64,000 nucleotides of DNA from Sphingomonas rosea. Lineage in GTDB: Bacteria; Pseudomonadota; Alphaproteobacteria; Sphingomonadales; Sphingomonadaceae. The stretch spans positions 434,001 through 498,000 of the forward strand of contig NZ_BAABBR010000001.1 in the NCBI RefSeq assembly GCF_039538065.1, written 5' to 3'. Shown here piece by piece: positions 46,804 through 64,000 of this stretch. The notes below the pieces were generated by a model. The model was not told the DNA's origin and did not search any database. It saw nothing but the letters and a program-made list of their open reading frames with translations. The first letter of the stretch is position 1. The number at the start of each line of letters is the position of its first letter. A program made the translations under genes and the position numbers.

Positions 46804-52169
<5,366 letters not shown>

Positions 52170-52173
<4 letters not shown>

Positions 52174-54248
52174 ACTTGAACCTTCAGAATGCTGTAAACA
52201 GGGCCGACGCGGAAGCTACTGCGCCAAACCTAAGCGGCGACGTGGAGCGTCCGCGCGTGCTCGTCGTCGACGATGACGAGCGCAATCTGCTCGCCATCGA
52301 AACGGTGCTTGAAGACGTCGGGGACATCGTCGTTGCTCGGTCCGGTGAGGAGGCGCTCCGCCACCTTCTCAAGGGCGACTTCGCGGTCATATTGCTCGAC
52401 GTCTACATGCCCGGGATGGATGGTTACGAAACCGCCCAGATCATTCGCAGCCGCGACCAGACAAAGCGCATACCGATCGTCTTCCTGTCGGCGGTGAACA
52501 AGGAAACGGAGCACCTCCTCCGCGGCTACTCGATGGGCGCCGTCGACTATGTGTTCAAACCGGTCGATCCGATGGTGCTTCGCTCCAAGGTCGCTGTGTT
52601 CGTCGACTTGTTTGCCAAGACCCGCGAAATCGAGCGCAAGGCTCAGCAGGAACAGGAACTGCTCGACGCCAACCTGCGCGCCAATGCCGAGCTGCTTCGA
52701 GCAGAGCAGGACCTCAGGCGCGCCGAACAGCGACAGGCCGCCATTATCGAGTCTCTGCCAATCGTGCTCTATCTCGAACCGCTGACATGTGACGTGCGCT
52801 GCCCAACCTTCGTAAGCGGCAACTTTCAGACGATCACCGGCTACCCCTTCGCCGAGGTGCTCCAGGAGCCTACGCTGTGGGGCGACCGGCTGCACGAAGA
52901 AGATCGGGAGCGCGTCCTGCGCGCGCTTGAGGAGCGCGCGCACACGAGCAAGTTATCGGTGGAATATCGCTGGCGCTGCGCTAACGGCAGTTACAAGTAT
53001 TTTCACGATCAGGCCGTGCTGCTGAGTGATCCTGAAGGGGTGCCGCTTGAGTATGCCGGCACCCTGACCGATGTGACCGAGCGTCGCGCGCTCGAAAGTC
53101 AGTTGGTCCATGCCCAGAAGATGGATGCCATCGGCAAGCTCACCGGAGGCATCGCTCACGACTTCAACAACCTGCTGGCGGCAGTGCTTGGCGGCATCGG
53201 CCTCATTGAGCGGCGTGCGAACCTTAGTGAAGAGCACCTGAAGATCCTCAGCATGACGAAGCGTGCTGCAGACCAAGGATCCGAGCTTGTCCGGCGCCTG
53301 CTTGCCTTCGCCCGTCAGCAACAGCTGCAGCCTACGCCTGTCGATATTGCCTCCTTGCACAAGGAAGTGAACGACCTTCTCAGCCATACCCTTGGTGGCC
53401 TGGTCGAGCTCGACTGGCACCTGCCCGAGGACAGCTGGTGTGCCTTCGCCGACCGTTCGCAGCTTGAACTGGCGCTGATGAACCTTGTCATCAATGCCCG
53501 CGACGCCATGCCGGACGGTGGAACCATCACCATTTCAGCGGACACGCAGGACATTGCCCGTGGAAACAAGCTGAACCTTGAGCCCGGAACATACGTCAGG
53601 CTTGAAGTCGCCGATCAGGGAACCGGTATTCCGGCGGAGATCGCGGACAAGGTGCTGGAACCTTTCTTCACAACCAAGCCTGTCGGCAAGGGCACGGGTC
53701 TGGGCCTCAGCATGGTTTATGGCTTTGCACGGCAATCCGGAGGCACCTTCTCGATCGCAAGCGAAGGGAAGTCAGGAACGAAGGCCACCGTATGGCTACC
53801 GCAAACATCATCGATCGAAGAAGATACCGCCACCTCCAAGCCGCCCAAGATGGTCGAAGACAGGCGCAAGCTTTCGATACTGCTTGTCGATGATCACCCC
53901 GAGGTGCGTGAGACCACGGCAGCGCTGCTGCGCGAGCTTGGTCATGACATCAAGGAAGCGTCGACCGGAGCGGAAGCCCTCATGATCTTGGCTGCTGACG
54001 GACAGACGATTGATGTTCTGCTGAGCGATTATGCCATGCCGCAGCTCAGCGGCACGGACTTGCTGGTAAAGGCCCGGCAATTGCTGCCAAACCTGCCCGC
54101 CGTCCTGATAACGGGCTATGCAGATGCCGAAGAGATCAAGGAACGGCCGACGGACGTTGCCATCTTGAATAAGCCCTTCAATCCCGAAGACCTTGCCGCC
54201 ACGTTGCGCAACTCGGTTCAGCGGGCTGAGATCTCACAAGAGCAGTAG
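52170..54248 (+). CDS. Hybrid histidine kinase REC-PAS-HisKA-HATPase-REC
   Basis: A 692-residue soluble hybrid kinase. Receiver 1 with Asp77 ([14 protein letters not shown]), coiled linker, PAS (about 185-310, [36 protein letters not shown]), HisKA His330 in [13 protein letters not shown], HATPase ([29 protein letters not shown]) and receiver 2 with Asp620 ([12 protein letters not shown]). Its GTG start overlaps the stop of the giant kinase, so the two are made in a set ratio and probably exchange phosphate. No DNA-binding output domain is present in either. Confidence 0.92.
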
Positions 54249-55363: not shown

Positions 55364-55621
55364 TGATAACCTCACGCGCTTCTCCACAAGGCTGTGAGTA
55401 GGAAACCTTCTGACAGGTCACCTCGCGCGAGCAAAGCCAAGGAAAGCGGGCGTTGTAAGTCGCGTAGCAGACCTTGAAGGGCCGAGCCAAGCCATCTCCT
55501 AATCTGAGTTATTTGATTCGTATGTCTACATCTGTTAGTGTAGGAGGGCGTATCGGCCTCGATCTGCCCATGCGCGGTGCCGACTGAGAGACTTAGCGCT
55601 CCCGCATGCCGAGGCGCTCGA

Positions 55622-56752
55622 ATGTCACAGCAGGACAGAACTCTAAGGCTTGCTGCCGCAATTGAGCAGTTGGCGGCAAGTCGCACGACCGAGTCACTTG
55701 TTTCGGTGCTAAGGTCGCTCACGCGAGACCTCATCGAAGCTGACGGAGTTGCGATCATCCTTCGTGATGGTGAATCCTGCCGCTACGTTGCGGAGGACGC
55801 AATTTCACCTTTATGGCAAGGCCGCGAGTTCTCCCTACACGAGTGCCTTTCTGGCTGGGTCATGATGCGGGGCCAAACAGCGATCGTTCCGGACGTCTTT
55901 GTAGATTCTCGTATACCGAAAGAAGCTTACGCAGAAACGTTCGTCCGGAGCGCCGTCATGGTTCCAATCGGCAAGCCGGAAGCGATTGCGGCCTTAGGAG
56001 CGTATTGGCGCAACACCGATGCTCCTAAGCCCGACAAAGTTGCAATTCTGGAAGCGCTCGGGAGAGCTGCGTCCACGGCCTTTGAGAATCTCAGGCTTAT
56101 CCATTCGCTTCAGGAATCACGTGAGCACGAAAAGTTGCTCGCAAATGAGTCAAGCCACCGGCTGAAGAATACCTTCACCGTGGTTTCTGCCCTGATCAAC
56201 CTAACTCTTTCCGGACGCGAAAGAGACGTTGAGACCGCCCGCTTGCAGCTGGTAGGTCGCATCAGCGCGTTGGCGGCAGCGCACCAGCGGCTCTTGAACG
56301 AGGTCCAGAGCGCAGACCTAAGCGACTTGATCTCCTCAACTCTTTACCCTCTTGCCCCGCAGGCGGATCAAATCACTTTACACGGCCCATCCGTCACGCT
56401 TCGCTCACAGACGACGACCTCTCTTACGCTTGGACTGCATGAGCTCGCGACCAACGCATTGAAATACGGCGCTTTGTCTGTGCCCGGCGGCACAGTTGAG
56501 GTGCGTTGGACTGTAGAGCCAAGTGAAAAGGGCAAGGTGCTAAAGCTGATATGGCGCGAGCGCGGTGGCCCGTTTGTCGCGAAGCCGCGTAGACGTGGCT
56601 TCGGCACCCGTATGATCGAAGGTAGTCTCGCCCATGAATTAGGAGCAGCGGTCTCCCTAATCTTCGATCCGGCTGGCGTCGTAGCGCATCTTTCAGCGGA
56701 ACTTATCGAAGGGGCTACAGCCGCTGACACCCTGACGGCTCAAGTCGCCTGA
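55622..56752 (+). CDS. GAF-HWE sensor histidine kinase
   Basis: A 376-residue soluble kinase. GAF domain about residues 20-170 (FSLHECLSGWVMMRGQTAIV, FVRSAVMVPIG). His179 in ESSHRLKNTFTVV is the phosphoacceptor; LHELATNALKYGALS and WRERGGPF mark the HWE group. GAGGCG lies before the ATG at 55622; an in-frame ATG 45 bases earlier is possible. The GAF domain may bind a small ligand or bilin-like cofactor, but no ligand Cys is obvious. Confidence 0.88.
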   Translation: MSQQDRTLRLAAAIEQLAASRTTESLVSVLRSLTRDLIEADGVAIILRDGESCRYVAEDAISPLWQGREFSLHECLSGWVMMRGQTAIVPDVFVDSRIPKEAYAETFVRSAVMVPIGKPEAIAALGAYWRNTDAPKPDKVAILEALGRAASTAFENLRLIHSLQESREHEKLLANESSHRLKNTFTVVSALINLTLSGRERDVETARLQLVGRISALAAAHQRLLNEVQSADLSDLISSTLYPLAPQADQITLHGPSVTLRSQTTTSLTLGLHELATNALKYGALSVPGGTVEVRWTVEPSEKGKVLKLIWRERGGPFVAKPRRRGFGTRMIEGSLAHELGAAVSLIFDPAGVVAHLSAELIEGATAADTLTAQVA

Positions 56753-56917: not shown

Positions 56918-56922
56918 GGAGG
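56918..56922 (+). promoter_or_regulatory. Ribosome site that sets the precursor start
   Basis: GGAGG with 8 bases before the TTG at 56931. No other start in the frame has a comparable site; the next, ATG 56946, is 15 bases further. Confidence 0.7.
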
Positions 56923-56930
56923 CACAGGCG

Positions 56931-57080
56931 TTGACCAATGAGAAGATGCGTTCGAGCGTAACTGGACTGAATAGGCGGTTGCCGTGGGTGAAGCCGACCT
57001 TGCGTCGAATGATTGCCGGGGGCGCGGAAGCTGGGCCGAACCCGAATGCGCCCGAAGGCCAATTCGCTAAGGGCAGCTAG
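56931..57080 (+). CDS. Putative lasso-peptide precursor
   Basis: A 49-residue RiPP precursor, too short for usual gene finders and with a TTG start. The leader (1-34) holds RLPWVKPTLRRM: W19, P22 and L24 keep the spacing of the Y-x-x-P-x-L motif read by the RRE domain of lasso B proteins. The predicted core is GPNPNAPEGQFAKGS: Gly1 and Glu8 would close an 8-residue macrolactam ring, leaving the tail GQFAKGS. The usual leader Thr at -2 is Glu here, which is atypical. The cyclase gene starts 28 bp later. A 9-membered ring from Ala34 is a poorer alternative. The call rests on pattern and position, not on homology search. Confidence 0.62.
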   Translation: MTNEKMRSSVTGLNRRLPWVKPTLRRMIAGGAEAGPNPNAPEGQFAKGS

Positions 57081-57108
57081 ACTTTCAACTCCAGTCTACC
57101 TTTCAGGA

Positions 57109-58785
57109 ATGATCGGAGCAGTCACCTGGACCCGCCAGCGGGCCGAGGCTGTAGCCCGAAAACTCGTTGCGAATGAGCCTTCATATGGTGTTTTGGTTCG
57201 CTCCGGCTCGGGCATGTGTGCCATGGCCTGCTCGACGCTCTGGTCGCGGATCGTAGAGCAGCGAGGAGATCTTGCGGGAATAAGCGGTGATCTTTCGCTC
57301 AGCGACCGACTTATCGCCCACTGGGCCGCTCACGGGCCCGCGGTTCTCAATCTTGCGCAAGTCGCGAGCGCCATCGCTGTGTGGGACGATGAGGCCCGTG
57401 AGCTGTCGCTCGTCCGCGATCCGCTTGGCTTCGAGCCGCTTTATTTCGTGCGCGGCGCGGAGGGAGCGGCCTTCGCCACGCGAAGCGACGTCTTCGGGCG
57501 GCTCGATGAGGCCTATCGTCGGCCGGATCTTGAAGCACTAGTCGCAGACCTCTCGTTCCGGACTAACCTCGGAAGGTCCTTTTTCCAGGGCGTCGAGCAG
57601 GTTCGGCCGGGTGAGATCGTCACGATCGCCGAAGGGCAGGTGAGCCACTACCGCTGGTGGAACCCGGACCAAACGCCGCTTCGCTTTACCTCCGCCAAGG
57701 CGATGGTTCGCGAGTACCGAAGCCTCCTCGAACAGTCCGTTGTCGCGGCCATGGCGGGCGGCGGTCGGGTGTTAGCGACCCACTTGTCGGCAGGCCTCGA
57801 CAGCAGTGTTGTAACGGCAATCGCAGCGAATGTTCGGGCCGCGGGAAGTCGGCACGTCGCACTGACGGGCGTGCCCGACCCTGCGCTGCTTCCCGTAGGC
57901 GACATCAGGCTGGTCAACGAAGGGGTCCTCGCCGCGGCCGTGGCGGGCTCGCTTCGTGCGGTCGAACATCGCTGCGTTCGCGCTCGCGGAGACCCTGTCG
58001 CGGCCATGATCGGAGCGCCAAGCCGTTATCACCAGCCCCTGCCTAACCCCCACAACCAGGGCCTTTTTGCGTCCCTCCAAGATGAGGCGAGTGTTGTAGG
58101 CGCCGACCGGCTATTGATCGCTCAAACCGGCAATTACACCTTCAGCATGTCAGCAAGCGCGCGATCGCTCGCGCGTGGTCCATGGCGACGATTGCGGGCA
58201 TTGGTGAGTGGGCAGTCCCGCCCGGCAAAGTGGTTCCTGCGGGACGACGCCGCACTGCCAGACCCGGCCGGGCCCGTTCCGGCCGACGGCCCGGCACGCC
58301 GGCTTTATCATCTGCGGGGCATGAACCCGGGTGCCTTATTGCACGGCGTGCGCGAACATTGGCGGCTGCGGCCGGTCGATCCCTTCGCTGATCGCCGACT
58401 GGTCGAATTCTCGCTTCGATTGCCGGAGGATCAGCTCGCCGCGCTCGGTCCGCGTGGCTTGGCACGGTCCATAGCAGGGGACCTCCTCCCGCTGGCGGTG
58501 ATGAGGGAGCGCCGCCGAGGCTATCAGAGCGCCGACTGGATCAGCCGGTGCCAGCGACACGCAGACGGCTTTGCGGCGCTGATTGCCGGGTGCCGCGATC
58601 ATGATGAGCTCAGTGCGGTCCTCGATATCGATGCGCTCGACGATGCGCTGAGGCGCCTCCGCGCGATCACCAGACCCACCGCGGCGGACGAGCGGCTTTA
58701 CCGGATCGAATGGCCGCGGGCGGTCGCTCTTGCTGCATTCGTGCTTGCCTGCGACGGCTGGACGCTCGCTGCCGAAACCTCATAA
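57109..58785 (+). CDS. Asparagine-synthetase-like lasso peptide cyclase (C protein)
   Basis: A 558-residue AsnB-fold protein. The N-terminal domain resembles the glutaminase half (LVRDPLGFEPLYFVR) but has no Cys2, as in McjC-type cyclases. The synthetase half has the ATP PP-loop HLSAGLDSSVVTAIAA (Ser227-Ser233), TGVPDP, the helical middle and the late RERRRGYQSADWISR, typical of alphaproteobacterial lasso cyclases. It would adenylate the core Glu and form the isopeptide bond. I take ATG 57109; an earlier frame overlaps the precursor gene. No B protease, ABC transporter or isopeptidase gene adjoins. Confidence 0.82.
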   Translation: MIGAVTWTRQRAEAVARKLVANEPSYGVLVRSGSGMCAMACSTLWSRIVEQRGDLAGISGDLSLSDRLIAHWAAHGPAVLNLAQVASAIAVWDDEARELSLVRDPLGFEPLYFVRGAEGAAFATRSDVFGRLDEAYRRPDLEALVADLSFRTNLGRSFFQGVEQVRPGEIVTIAEGQVSHYRWWNPDQTPLRFTSAKAMVREYRSLLEQSVVAAMAGGGRVLATHLSAGLDSSVVTAIAANVRAAGSRHVALTGVPDPALLPVGDIRLVNEGVLAAAVAGSLRAVEHRCVRARGDPVAAMIGAPSRYHQPLPNPHNQGLFASLQDEASVVGADRLLIAQTGNYTFSMSASARSLARGPWRRLRALVSGQSRPAKWFLRDDAALPDPAGPVPADGPARRLYHLRGMNPGALLHGVREHWRLRPVDPFADRRLVEFSLRLPEDQLAALGPRGLARSIAGDLLPLAVMRERRRGYQSADWISRCQRHADGFAALIAGCRDHDELSAVLDIDALDDALRRLRAITRPTAADERLYRIEWPRAVALAAFVLACDGWTLAAETS

Positions 58786-58968
58786 GCGTTGCGCCAATCC
58801 CACAATTGTCTGGAAAAGAGCGTAAACTTGAGATTACCCAAGACGCTTCATTGCTCTGCAACTGCCAGAAATTAATCTGCCGTCTCTGAATCAAGTCAAT
58901 GGATGTTCGTGGCATGTGGCTGTGTGGCGCTGAAGGATCGTCCCAGCATGAGCGAAAGGGGGGATCGC

Positions 58969-61900
58969 ATGGTTAAGCGCACATTGTTCACCGCCAACGA
59001 TGGCGCGTCGGGTCCGGTCCTCTACATCACCGACGGGACACAGGCCGGGACCAAGGCGATCCTCGACCTGCCCGGGACGCTCGATCCGCAGCTCGGCCTT
59101 TACGTCAGCCTCGGCAACCTCGTCGTCTTCATGGCGAACGACGGCACGAACGGCCGCGAACTTTGGGTTACCGACGGGACGCCGGAGGGTACGCGGCTCC
59201 TCAAGGACATTTATACGGGCAGCAACAGTTCCAACCCAAGCTATCTCTACACCTACGGCAACAAGGTGCTGTTCTGGGCGTTGGACGCCACGAACGGGCG
59301 GGAATTGTGGTCGACCGACGGGACCGAAGCGGGAACCGTGCTGGTCAAGGACACCGTCAGCGGGTCGGGGTATCCGGGCAGCATCACCAATTTCGAGCCG
59401 TTCGGATCGAAACTCCTGTTCATCGCCGACAACCAGCTGTGGATCACCGACGGCACCACGTCCGGGACCCAGGCCCTGTCGACGACGATCAGCGGCTTCG
59501 GCTTCTACACCGAGCCGATGGTCATCGGCACCAAGGCCGTCTTCGCGGTCTCGAGTGCGACCAGCGGCTACGAGCTGTGGGTTTCGGACGGGACGGTGGC
59601 CGGAACCGGGATTCTCAAGGACATCAACGCCGGGACGGCCAGCTCCTACCCGAACGATTTCTTCAAGTTCGGCAACAAGATCCTGTTCAAGGCGGCCACC
59701 GCCACGCAGGGCGAGGAACTGTGGATCACCGACGGCACCGCGGCCGGGACCATCCTCCTCAAGGACATCTACGCGGGCACCTCGTCTTCCTATGCCAACG
59801 ACTTCCTGATCATGGGGTCCAAGGTCCTGTTCGTCGCCAACAACGGGACGAACGCCGAGGAATTGTGGGTCACCGACGGTACCGCCGCCGGCACCGTGCT
59901 CCTCAAGGACATTTCGCCGGGAGCGGCCTCGTCCGTCGCCAACTACCTGACCCCGCTGGGTTCGAAGGCGGTATTTGCGGCGTCGGACGGCACCAACGGA
60001 ATCGAGCTGTGGATCACCGACGGCACCGCCGCCGGGACGGTCCTGCTCAAAAACATCAACACCGCCGCCGGTGGCTCGTCCGAGCCCAAGGGCTTTATCC
60101 AGCTCGGCACCAAGCTTCTCTTCACCGCCTACGAGCCGACCATCGGGGTCGAAATCTGGGCGACCGACGGAACGGCCGCCGGGACGGTCCGGCTGAAGGA
60201 TTTGGCGAGCGGGGACGACAGCCCCTATTCCGACATTTCCCCGATCACCGTCGTCGGCTCCAAGGCCTATTTCTTCAACCAGGGCAGCGACGGCGCCTGG
60301 GACCTGTGGAGCACGGACGGGACGGCCGCCGGCACGGTCTTCCTCAAGGACTTCGCGCGGACGAACGGAACGAATACGACCCCGGTCCCCGAACTGTCGG
60401 TGATGGACGGCAAGATCCTGTTCACGGCCGACGACGGGCTTCAGGGTCCGGAACTGTGGATCTCGGACGGCACGGTCGCGGGCACGTCCATCGTCGACCT
60501 TAACAAGACGACCGACATCGGCTCCAATCCCCGGGCGGGCGGACAGATCGGCAATATCTACCTCTTCACCGCGACCTTCGGGACCGCGGCTGAGCTGTGG
60601 GCGACGGACGGCACACCGGGCGGAAGCGTCCGCCTGGTCGACCGCATGTACGGCCAGAACAGCTCGGCGAACCTCAACGGCGCGCTGCTGCCGGGCACGA
60701 ACAAGTTCGTCTTCGAGCGCGAGGAAGCGGCGACCGGCCGCGAGCTCTGGATCACCGACGGGACGGTCGCGGGCACCAAGCTCGTCAAGGATATGGTTCC
60801 GGGCGCCGGCAGTGCGAACCTGTCGAACTTCAAGGTATTCGGTTCGGAACTGATCTTCCTGTCGCGGCCGAACACGCTGACCGACCTGTGGAAGACCGAC
60901 GGAACGGCGGCGGGCACGGTGATGCTCAAGGCCAATGTCGGGACGCAGATCGTCCAATTCGGGTCGAAGCTGGTATTCGCGGCGACGGATGCGGCGAGCG
61001 GCAGCGAAATCTGGATCTCCGACGGAACGCTCGCCGGCACCAGCCTGCTCAAGGACACGCTGGCGGGGGCCGGGAACGGCAATCCCGCCAATTTTACCGT
61101 GTGGGGAAGCAAGCTCGCCTTCACCGCCACCAATGCGGCGAACGGCACCGACCTTTGGCTGACCGACGGGACCAGCGCCGGAACCAGCATCCTGAAGACG
61201 CTTCCCGGTACCTACGCCTATGTCGGGACGCCGCCGCGCGTGCTTGGCGACAAACTGGTGTTCGAGTTCCAGGACCAGTCCGGCAACTACCAGCTGTGGA
61301 GCAGCGACGGGACCGGCGCCGGAACCGTGCTCCTGAAGTCGTTCGTCTATGCGAACACCAACCAGGGCGTGCTCAATTCCGCCGCGACCCTGAATGGCAA
61401 GATCCTGTTCGGCGCGAGCGACGGGACCACGGGCAAGGAATTGTGGATCACCGACGGCACGGTCGCCGGCACGACCCTGCTCAAGGACATTAACGTCGGG
61501 ACGGGAAGCTCCAATCCGGTCGATTTCCTTCAGGTCGGCAACCTCGTCGTGTTCCGCGCGGCCCAGGGCTCCGGTTCGGCACTGTGGGCGACGGACGGGA
61601 CGGCGGCCGGAACCGTGCTGCTCGCCAGCTTCAGCAATTCCCTCTCGACCTTCGGCAACCCGAACTGGGCGATCCCATCGGAGGGGAAGATTTACTTCTC
61701 CGGGACGACCGTGAGCGGCGGATCGGAATTGTGGGTTACCGACGGGACCGCGGCGGGCACGCAGATGGTCCTCGACATCAACCGAAACACGGCCAGTGGC
61801 TATTTCACCAACGGCATCACCTTCCAGGGCAAGTTCTACTTCAACGCGACTGACAGCGCCTCGGGGTCGGAACTGTGGGTGACCGACGGCACCACCGCCG

Positions 61901-63822
61901 GAACGGTCAAGCTCAAGGAAATCAATCCCGGGATCGACAGCGCTTCGCCCTACAATTTCTACATCGTCGGCAACCAGCTCTACTTCGGCGCCAATAACGG
62001 CGTTGTCGGGACCGAGACCTGGGTCACCGACGGAACCCCCGGCGGGACCCGCCTCGTCGTCAACACCAATCCGATCGGGGTCGGCTCGGATCCGAAGAAC
62101 TTCTTCGTCTTCGACTATGCGCCAAACCTCTACAACAGCGTTCCCGGCGCACAGAACGGGGTCGAGGACACCTACCTCTATTTCTCGTCGGGAAGCGCCA
62201 ACGGCCTTCGGGTAACCGATCCCGGGGTCACCATGACGGTGACCCTGTCGGTGACCTCGGGCACGCTGACGCTGACGAACACGAGCGGCCTGACCTTTGT
62301 CGGCGGCGCCAACGGCACCGGCTCGCTGTCGGTCAGCGGATCGGGCGCCGCCATCAACGCCGCGCTCGACAGCCTCGCCTATCGCGGCAACCTCAACTTT
62401 AACGGCACCGACACGCTGACGATCACCAGCCAGTATGCGGCGAAGTCCGACACCGACACGGTCACCATCACCCTGGCGCCCGACGGCAGGATCACCGGCA
62501 GCAGCGGCAACGACACGATCACCGGGACGGACGGAAGTGACTTCTTCGACCTGACCCGGGGCGGCGACGACAATGTCGCGGGCGGGACCGGGAACGACGG
62601 TTTCCTGTTCGGCGCGGCCTATACCGGTGCCGACACCGTCGACGGCGGCGACGGCGTGCTCGACCAGATCGGGCTGCAGGGCAATTATGCCGGCGGGGTG
62701 ACGCTCGGCGGCCTGAGCGGGGTCGAGCTCGTCGTGCTCCTGTCGGGCAGCGACACGCGCTTCGGCGACACGGCGAACAACCTCTACGACTACACCATCA
62801 CCGCGCCCGACACGGCGGTCGCGGCCGGCAAGAACCTGATCTTCCAGGCGAACGAGCTCCGGGCTGGAGAGGATTTCACCTTCAACGGCTCGGCCGAGAC
62901 CGACGGCACCTTCACCCTCTACGGCGGCTTCGGCGTCGACACGCTGACCGGCGGGTCGGGTCCGGGCGGGGACGGCTTCTTCTTCGGCCAGAACCGCTTC
63001 GGCGCATCCGACACGGTGAACGGCGGCGGCAGCCTGTTCGACCAGATCGGCTTCCAGGGGAATTTCACCGGCGGCAGTTCGCTGGTGTTCGGCGCGGCGC
63101 AGATGACCAATGTCGAGTTCATCGTCCTGCTGAGCGCTTCGGACAACCGCTTCGGTGCCGCCGGCGGAGTGGCCGGCTACGACCTCACCATGAACGACGG
63201 CAACGTCGCCGCCGGTCAGAGGCTGGTCGTGTCGGCCAACACGCTGCAGGCGGGCGAAACGCTGGTTTTCGACGGCTCGGCAGAAGCCGACGGTCGCTTC
63301 CGCATCTTCTCAGGCGCAGGCGACGATCGGATCCTCGGCAGCCAGAATGGTGACGAGGTCTACGGCGGGCTTGGCAACGACACCTTCGTTTACACGTCGC
63401 TCAACCAATCGGCGGTGGACGACCGCGACAGCCTCCGCGATTTCCGTTTGGGCGACCGGATCGACTTCAGCGCGCTTGGAAGTTTCACTTTCGTTGGCAC
63501 CGACGCGGCCAGCGGCGCCCACCAAGTCCGCGCGGTCCAGACCGGCAACAATGCGCTCGTCGAACTCTACTTCGACGGCGATGCGACGGCGGACCTTGCG
63601 ATCAACGTGACGGTTGCGGACGGTCACCTTCTCGATGTTACCGACTTTGTGTTCGCGGTCAGCGGACAGGGCTCGATCATGGGCAGGGCGATCACCGCGG
63701 AAGGCTGGGAAGAACAATCGCTGCCGTCGCAGCAGACCTGGCCTGGTGGGCATCTGCCGCGCTACGAATTCAACACTTACGAGCACGACTGGCTGATCCC
63801 TCGGACGGATTACTTGATCTGA
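58969..63822 (+). CDS. Giant ELWxTDGTxxGT-repeat / RTX secreted protein
   Basis: A 1617-residue protein without a signal peptide, expected to leave by type I secretion. Residues about 10-1045 hold 22 copies of ELWxTDGTxxGT (for example ELWITDGTAAGT) about 45-50 residues apart, probably beta-propeller blades. A cadherin-like module follows (NGVEDTYLYFSSGSA; DSLAYRGNLNFNGTDTLTI), then RTX-type Ca sites (GSSGNDTITGTDGSD, GAGDDRILGSQNGDEVYGGL, GNDTFVY) and a serralysin-type C-terminal domain (GDRIDFSALGSFTFVGTDA). It ends with a 50-residue aromatic-rich tail. AAGGGGGG before ATG 58969 fixes the start. No transporter genes are in view. Adhesin or ligand-binding surface role is inferred. Confidence 0.93.
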   Translation: MVKRTLFTANDGASGPVLYITDGTQAGTKAILDLPGTLDPQLGLYVSLGNLVVFMANDGTNGRELWVTDGTPEGTRLLKDIYTGSNSSNPSYLYTYGNKVLFWALDATNGRELWSTDGTEAGTVLVKDTVSGSGYPGSITNFEPFGSKLLFIADNQLWITDGTTSGTQALSTTISGFGFYTEPMVIGTKAVFAVSSATSGYELWVSDGTVAGTGILKDINAGTASSYPNDFFKFGNKILFKAATATQGEELWITDGTAAGTILLKDIYAGTSSSYANDFLIMGSKVLFVANNGTNAEELWVTDGTAAGTVLLKDISPGAASSVANYLTPLGSKAVFAASDGTNGIELWITDGTAAGTVLLKNINTAAGGSSEPKGFIQLGTKLLFTAYEPTIGVEIWATDGTAAGTVRLKDLASGDDSPYSDISPITVVGSKAYFFNQGSDGAWDLWSTDGTAAGTVFLKDFARTNGTNTTPVPELSVMDGKILFTADDGLQGPELWISDGTVAGTSIVDLNKTTDIGSNPRAGGQIGNIYLFTATFGTAAELWATDGTPGGSVRLVDRMYGQNSSANLNGALLPGTNKFVFEREEAATGRELWITDGTVAGTKLVKDMVPGAGSANLSNFKVFGSELIFLSRPNTLTDLWKTDGTAAGTVMLKANVGTQIVQFGSKLVFAATDAASGSEIWISDGTLAGTSLLKDTLAGAGNGNPANFTVWGSKLAFTATNAANGTDLWLTDGTSAGTSILKTLPGTYAYVGTPPRVLGDKLVFEFQDQSGNYQLWSSDGTGAGTVLLKSFVYANTNQGVLNSAATLNGKILFGASDGTTGKELWITDGTVAGTTLLKDINVGTGSSNPVDFLQVGNLVVFRAAQGSGSALWATDGTAAGTVLLASFSNSLSTFGNPNWAIPSEGKIYFSGTTVSGGSELWVTDGTAAGTQMVLDINRNTASGYFTNGITFQGKFYFNATDSASGSELWVTDGTTAGTVKLKEINPGIDSASPYNFYIVGNQLYFGANNGVVGTETWVTDGTPGGTRLVVNTNPIGVGSDPKNFFVFDYAPNLYNSVPGAQNGVEDTYLYFSSGSANGLRVTDPGVTMTVTLSVTSGTLTLTNTSGLTFVGGANGTGSLSVSGSGAAINAALDSLAYRGNLNFNGTDTLTITSQYAAKSDTDTVTITLAPDGRITGSSGNDTITGTDGSDFFDLTRGGDDNVAGGTGNDGFLFGAAYTGADTVDGGDGVLDQIGLQGNYAGGVTLGGLSGVELVVLLSGSDTRFGDTANNLYDYTITAPDTAVAAGKNLIFQANELRAGEDFTFNGSAETDGTFTLYGGFGVDTLTGGSGPGGDGFFFGQNRFGASDTVNGGGSLFDQIGFQGNFTGGSSLVFGAAQMTNVEFIVLLSASDNRFGAAGGVAGYDLTMNDGNVAAGQRLVVSANTLQAGETLVFDGSAEADGRFRIFSGAGDDRILGSQNGDEVYGGLGNDTFVYTSLNQSAVDDRDSLRDFRLGDRIDFSALGSFTFVGTDAASGAHQVRAVQTGNNALVELYFDGDATADLAINVTVADGHLLDVTDFVFAVSGQGSIMGRAITAEGWEEQSLPSQQTWPGGHLPRYEFNTYEHDWLIPRTDYLI

Positions 63823-63843: not shown

Positions 63844-64000
63844 ATGAACCGCTCTGTGTGGCGGCATTTTGGCGGCGATGACATCAAGGTCGAGCGCCTG
63901 ACTCTATCCTCCCTCATCTCGCGCAACCTCTGTCCGGCCAATCGTCCGACGCGGGCTGAGGCTAACCGCGCCCAGGTGCGGAAGTCGGGTTGTAACCCCG
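63844..64000 (+). other. Doubtful open frame running off the window
   Basis: After the RTX gene a frame from ATG 63844 (NRSVWRHFGGDDIKVERLTL) stays open to the end. No ribosome site and no recognised domain; could be the start of a real gene or chance. Confidence 0.2.

Follow-up and report, generated by a model that had tools for sequence, protein, structure and literature searches.

The 64,000-nucleotide stretch of Sphingomonas rosea DNA analyzed here (the window; C1:434001 - 498000, from a genome with a completeness score of 99.96%) probably contains a two-gene A-C cassette of a lasso-type system, which is related to the phosphorylated lasso peptides and would be matured in trans by a shared hub elsewhere in the genome. 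The cassette consists of the genes for a precursor (A) and an AsnB-like cyclase (C; Table 1). The single copies of B1 and B2, the matching leaders, the conserved core, and the co-occurrence of precursor and B genes within the genus count for a trans-matured cassette. The unreached cut-offs of the lasso cyclase, PqqD, and HprK-related models, the Trp at leader position -16, and the varied first residue of the core count against it. Of the original prediction for this locus, the lasso-type nature of precursor and cyclase and a B protein encoded elsewhere were retained, whereas the idea that a missing Thr at -2 implies an uncleaved or differently cleaved precursor found no support.

Table 1. Features of the cassette and its right-hand neighbour, with positions counted from the first letter of the window
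Feature	Position	Strand	Description
RBS of precursor A (GGAGG)	56918..56922	+	Read from the sequence; 8 nt before TTG at 56931
Precursor gene A	56931..57080	+	49 aa, TTG start, TAG stop; conserved in LY29 and S. donggukensis
Leader of precursor A	56931..57032	+	With W-V-K-P-T-L-R-R and AGGAEA
Core GPNPNAPEGQFAKGS	57033..57077	+	Putative boundary; may begin one codon earlier (Ala)
Cyclase gene C	57109..58785	+	558 aa, AsnB-like, ATG start; first ~60 residues degenerate
SAGLDS, ATP-binding loop of the cyclase	57787..57804	+	Residues 227-232
RTX/serralysin-C-type protein gene	58903..63822	+	1639 aa as listed; PF08548, 35.2 bits; next to the cyclase gene

The 49-codon TTG gene with its GGAGG site, the W-x-x-P-x-L leader, and the gap of 28 bp between precursor and cyclase genes, all part of the original prediction, were read again in the sequence. 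An in-frame ATG at 56946 (codon 6) is an alternative start that leaves the core unaffected, and the gene scored 52.6 bits against the precursor profile. Its product ends in GGAEA-GPNPNAPEGQFAKGS, with Ser15 as the C-terminal residue. If the core begins at Gly35, leader position -2 is occupied by Glu, the Thr usually found there indeed being absent as noted earlier, and the acid residue is Glu8 (codon 57054-57056), from which a Gly1-Glu8 ring is predicted. In this register, the W-x-x-P-x-L motif lies at -16 to -11, versus -17 to -12 for Y-x-x-P-x-L, the Tyr of lasso leaders being placed at -17 (PMC10368454). The register was chosen because two members of the precursor family with Thr at -2 (L024 and L031) then display the canonical Gly1 and Glu8. 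A core starting one residue earlier, at Ala34, is clearly the less probable choice; it would turn the acid residue into Glu9 and, across the 37 precursors described below, give ring sizes of 8 and 9 with Ala (13), Ser (9), or Asn (6) as the most frequent first residues. Both Glu8 and Glu9 fall within residues 7-9, where lasso cores carry Asp or Glu.

The cyclase starts with MIGAV and hence lacks Cys2, in line with the original prediction, as is its AsnB-like nature, for which a Pfam Asn_synthase match of 52.6 bits (cut-off 21) was obtained. The GATase_7 match covered only the later part of that domain (positions 65 - 118 of 123), indicating that the glutaminase-like domain is largely lost. In the predicted structural model (mean pLDDT 79.6), the first ~60 residues mostly scored under 60, and the fold matched TsnB9, beta-lactam synthetase, and AsnB (E 3e-19 to 1e-14). 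No lasso cyclase of the PDB was found by sequence (three matches) or among the best 50 fold matches listed. The NCBIfam lasso cyclase models remained below their cut-offs (NF033535, 74.8 of 525; NF033561, 73.1 of 300), and the best NCBIfam match, TIGR01536 for asparagine synthase, did so too (84 of 267). This best match and the AsnB fold would suit an ordinary glutamine-dependent asparagine synthetase, or a related amidotransferase, standing next to a small frame by coincidence. Such an identity is extremely improbable given the missing Cys2 and the true AsnB encoded elsewhere in the genome, and it was rejected on the position of the cyclase in the tree. Indeed, in a tree of 41 rows, from which McjC and CauC are absent and which holds no biochemically proven lasso cyclase, 38 lasso-type rows including that of the window formed a group (100/100) apart from two outside proteins and the AsnB encoded in the same genome. 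The window cyclase first joined that of Sphingomonas sp. LY29 (100/99) and then the rows P0003-P0009 (100/99); the S. donggukensis cyclase joined next, although not firmly (93/78). Thus, the grouping with true asparagine synthetases that the original prediction had named as its refutation was not seen, the window cyclase standing with 37 other precursor-linked or lasso-type cyclases. Similarly, precursor-profile matches occurred beside such cyclases, and Asn342 (Asp in AsnB), Asp424, and Arg449 were conserved in 37, 37, and 36 of the 37 lasso-type rows of the alignment, respectively; Gly229, Asp231, and Ser232 were present in all 37. In addition, Arg470 (35/37) and Gln473 (36/37) replace Ala and Gly of the true AsnB row in a part where the alignment is uncertain; we take them to lie near the catalytic Lys region of AsnB.

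A B gene within the A-C cluster and Thr at -2 are usual for lasso peptides, although clustering does not define them. Unclustered proteases are known for lanthipeptides (PMC8960859). No B1- or B2-like gene was found near the pair, as originally stated; the right flank was covered up to position 64000 (5.2 kb past the cyclase gene) within the window and by genome-wide searches beyond it. A hidden B gene was sought inside the window and rejected. The whole-genome search substantiated the suggestion that B is encoded elsewhere, since B1 and B2 were each retrieved once in the same genome. The only B2 match (C1:2217676 - 2217933, in the gene C1:2217532 - 2217945) scored 59.8 bits against the lasso B2 model NF033537 (cut-off 33). 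The only B1 (RRE) protein above the cut-off was encoded near C1:2204499 - 2204765, by a gene overlapping an ABC transporter gene by 4 bp, and scored 60.7 bits against PF05402 (cut-off 23.4), with the lasso PqqD model remaining under its cut-off (46.1 of 80). A gene for an HprK-like kinase begins within the B2 gene, and the latter faces one for a PF14907 nucleotidyltransferase. The kinase, an HprK-like homologue of 312 aa encoded 1.7 Mb from the pair, is 30-59% alike to the kinases of clustered relatives and falls below the cut-off of the HprK-related family models (33.6 of 200). This trio (C1:2216459 - 2218805) is part of an exopolysaccharide-type locus, flanked by an O-antigen-ligase-like gene and an MFS-like gene; the genome G068 possesses the same trio (55-59% identity). 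By contig coordinates, 1.71 and 1.73 Mb separate the window pair from the B genes, or ~0.95 Mb the short way if the contig is a closed circle. Besides three weaker matches, the genome encodes three full-type Asn_synthase proteins, namely the true AsnB, the window cyclase, and a second Cys2-less cyclase at 2.086 Mb. The latter belongs to a second precursor-cyclase pair (C1:2085751 - 2087848; precursor MKKTWNKPELKRMVAGGAENGANPGNKDGNPGSRRS), likewise without local B1 or B2. The precursor profile retrieved exactly these two precursors, both with W-x-KP-x-L-[RK]-R-M-x-AGGAE leaders. Hence, two A-C pairs, at 0.49 and 2.09 Mb, have a single B1 and a single B2 at their disposal.

A cyclase search of 71 genomes of the genus yielded matches at E 1e-20 or better in 24 of them, but the only close one was that of Sphingomonas sp. 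LY29 (53%), directly preceded by the precursor GPNPVSPEGQFARGS. Among 397 genomes of the family, only the window's own cyclase and that of S. donggukensis (38%; precursor GANPVIPEGQFGKGS) matched at E 1e-45 or better. A fourth precursor of the same type, GPNPNAPEGQFAFGS, again ending in Ser, came from a metagenome protein. The core consensus is G[PA]NPxxPEGQF[AG]xGS. A three-row precursor alignment found this core in no further genome among 396 of the order, the other four of the six matched genomes showing different cores or weak matches; among 5.8 billion proteins it found two homologues and the lone precursor none. A contig scan with a two-sequence cyclase alignment returned 15 far relatives, none above 35% identity, and a plasmid search gave nothing above 60% identity, only lower matches. 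The recurrence of a precursor with an orthologous cyclase in LY29 and S. donggukensis removes the doubt, raised with the original prediction, that the frame might not be conserved. The 49-codon frame is a real gene and not a product of chance, as almost the same core stands ahead of an orthologous cyclase in two more genomes and its codons are under purifying selection. Over the 15 codons of the core, dN was 0.18-0.24, with dS at 1.70 for one pair and at saturation for two, rough values given ~11 synonymous sites; these indicate that the core is under purifying selection. The dN of the leader towards S. donggukensis was 0.83, equally rough because of few synonymous sites.

The isolation of the pair and the degenerate first ~60 residues of its cyclase may recall what is left of a formerly complete, decaying cluster. 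This reading is highly improbable and was rejected on the core dN/dS: both frames are open, the core has been kept across two genera while synonymous sites became saturated, and the arrangement without B occurs three times. LY29 keeps its only B1 and its only B2 together with A, a kinase, a nucleotidyltransferase, and a cyclase in a cluster 142 kb from its B-less pair. In S. donggukensis, B2 matched three times and B1 twice, no closer than 170 kb to the pair. The assembly shows the clustered LY29 cyclase gene (L121:8581-10472) as two frames, owing to either a true break or a sequencing error. The recurrent lack of a local B in all three genomes would also fit a cyclase that needs no B, either because a general protease cleaves the precursor before ring closure or because the enzyme works independently of the leader; according to the title of a study cited in PMC9266682, pseudomycoidin arises in vivo in the absence of both leader and leader peptidase. 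This alternative is decidedly unlikely, as the leaders of all four members kept W-x-x-P and AGxAE, the common leader part of the family, and as all three genomes encode B1 and B2 elsewhere.

Maturation in trans, the favoured reading, is consistent with the distribution of these genes over the genus. Among the 71 genus genomes, B2 was found in 49, B1 in 45, and precursors in 37. All 37 genomes with a precursor had one B1 and 36 had B2, the exception being G058 (79% complete), versus B1 in 8 and B2 in 13 of the 34 genomes without a precursor (Fisher p of 1e-12 for B1 and 4e-8 for B2, not corrected for kinship). Of 49 precursor matches, one of them doubtful (G029:C1:1427106; E 0.007, with an internal stop), 20 lay within 10 kb of both B1 and B2, 18 lay on the same contig but more than 10 kb from both, and 11 had mixed distances or were on other contigs. 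Dispersal of precursors away from B is thus a habit of the genus, and it accounts for the absence of B beside the window pair. To characterize the family, 37 distinct precursors were read (34 from the genus and three from other genera). Their selection relied on a W-x-x-P-x-[LIVM] filter together with a profile derived from earlier members; the constant Trp is therefore built into the set, and more divergent leaders would escape. Position -2 was Glu in 33, Thr in two, Gly in one, and Arg in one. The acid stood at core residue 7 or 8 in 35 precursors and at 6 and 7 in the other two; the last residue was Ser in 36. Core residue 1 was Gly in only 16, the remainder having N, S, K, Q, R, V, P, I, or H, a variety that is odd for lasso peptides. 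Among the 20 precursors within 10 kb of both B genes, ten were read, with seven Glu, two Thr, and one Gly at -2. Seven Glu(-2) precursors beside both B genes imply that such leaders belong with B1 and B2, dissolving the anomaly. A defect through loss of Thr(-2) was ruled out, Glu being the family rule, and these same counts do not support the original reading of the missing Thr as a sign of absent or different cleavage.

Maturation of the window peptide, as predicted from these sequences, may proceed as follows. Firstly, B1, the RRE protein, would bind the W-x-x-P-x-L leader. Secondly, B2 would cut the precursor after A-E-x, the exact cleavage residue being uncertain by one. Thirdly, the local cyclase would adenylate Glu8 and join it to the new N-terminus, giving a ring of eight residues and a tail of seven, which may be threaded. 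Finally, Ser15 may be modified, possibly by phosphorylation, through the two enzymes encoded next to B2, the HprK-like kinase and the nucleotidyltransferase. The second A-C pair, at 2.086 Mb, would depend on the same hub. Alternatively, a macrolactam made in the same way may remain unthreaded, as a branched-cyclic peptide. The tail of only seven residues, with a single bulky residue, Phe11, early in it, is compatible with this, but the relationship of the cyclase to lasso-type cyclases in the tree and a 15-residue core inside the 13-33 aa reported for lasso cores (PMC13352647) make an unthreaded product unlikely.

An RTX gene adjoins the pair in all three loci, on the opposite strand in LY29 (L037 4599-7547) and S. 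donggukensis (L120 26-6628), and in none of 12 other cyclase loci with flanks of 7-8 kb. Since these genomes contain only nine (window), five (LY29), and four (S. donggukensis) RTX frames, chance adjacency is below 1% in each. The window protein has many ELWxTDGTxAGT repeats and an RTX/serralysin C-terminal part. What the neighbours have in common is the C-terminal domain only (about 400 aa), and the neighbour is the sole RTX protein carrying it among the nine of the window's genome and the five of LY29; in S. donggukensis, three of four carry it. The neighbours are not simple orthologues. That of S. donggukensis is less similar to the window protein (41%) than are a further two of its genome's RTX proteins (46%), and over its initial ~1,700 residues it matches (66%) an RTX protein of LY29 encoded away from any cassette. 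Three sensor-kinase genes lie upstream of the window pair (46804-52173, 52170-54248, and 55577-56752). Close relatives of the first two (84% and 64%) also precede the LY29 pair, so that the loci of the window and LY29 are not independent; no such relatives were found in the S. donggukensis stretch examined. The RTX protein is a possible functional partner of the pair. Conservation of the core across genera, unlike the variable sister cores, suggests a fixed target, for which the adjacent RTX protein is a concrete candidate. A wider and tentative model has a hub-and-spoke layout, in which one set of B1, B2, kinase, and nucleotidyltransferase per genome would serve several dispersed cassettes through a new Glu(-2) signal, and in which a signal-like GxNPxxPEGQFxxGS peptide would work with the adjacent RTX surface or secreted protein.

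Lasso clusters are recognized by genome-mining tools through adjacent B and C genes and through Thr(-2); of the 49 precursors of the genus, 18 (one doubtful) would escape these tools or count as incomplete. Should B act in trans, several products would come from a single pair of leader peptidases, and leader recognition by the RRE could be tested directly within one cell. The new points are the Glu(-2) leaders, the proposed hub-and-spoke layout, the conserved core, and the adjacent RTX gene; the literature searched, subscription papers excepted, yielded no account of leaders with Glu(-2), of a remote B acting for lasso cassettes, or of the RTX link.

Among known systems, asparagine synthetase B, beta-lactam synthetase, and TsnB9 (PDB 1ct9, 1mc1, and 7ylz) have the fold of the predicted cyclase model, but the window cyclase differs from them by lacking Cys2, by other conserved residues, and by its link to a precursor. 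Sphingocin (spgABC) of Sphingomonas BPH likewise represents a sphingomonad lasso-type cluster without exporter, although the available text describes another precursor, a Thr(-2)-type leader end, B2 in the operon, and an isopeptidase and a TonB receptor nearby (PMC11006600). Metanodin, the first lasso peptide with Asn1, shows that residues other than Gly, Cys, Ser, and Ala are possible at position 1, but, as far as its available description goes, it retains Thr(-2) and a clustered B (PMC12670498). Thr(-2) has been the rule for lasso leaders, with Ile(-2) as the first validated exception and Ile or Val(-2) in Sphingomonadales (PMC10368454). That exception, bsf of Bradymonas sediminis, combines A, B1, B2, C, a kinase, and a nucleotidyltransferase with a non-Thr(-2) leader and a reported Gly1-Asp8 ring; it differs from the window system, in the part of the source available, by Ile(-2) (and Ile or Val in Sphingomonadales) instead of Glu, by clustered genes, and by W/Y at -17 instead of -16 (PMC10368454). 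Closest are the phosphorylated lasso clusters of paeninodin (Pade), syanodin of Sphingobium yanoikuyae (Syan), and pseudomycoidin (Psm), which, according to the text available, also have split B1/B2, an HprK-like kinase (putative in S. rosea), a nucleotidyltransferase, a C-terminal precursor Ser, and an AsnB-like cyclase, the C-terminal Ser being phosphorylated by PadeK, ThcoK, SyanK, and PsmK, with PsmN described as well (PMC9266682). Unlike in these clusters, more than 1.7 Mb of contig separates A and C of S. rosea from B1, B2, the kinase, and the nucleotidyltransferase, and the window precursor combines Glu instead of Thr at -2 and Trp instead of Tyr with a short, hydrophilic core.
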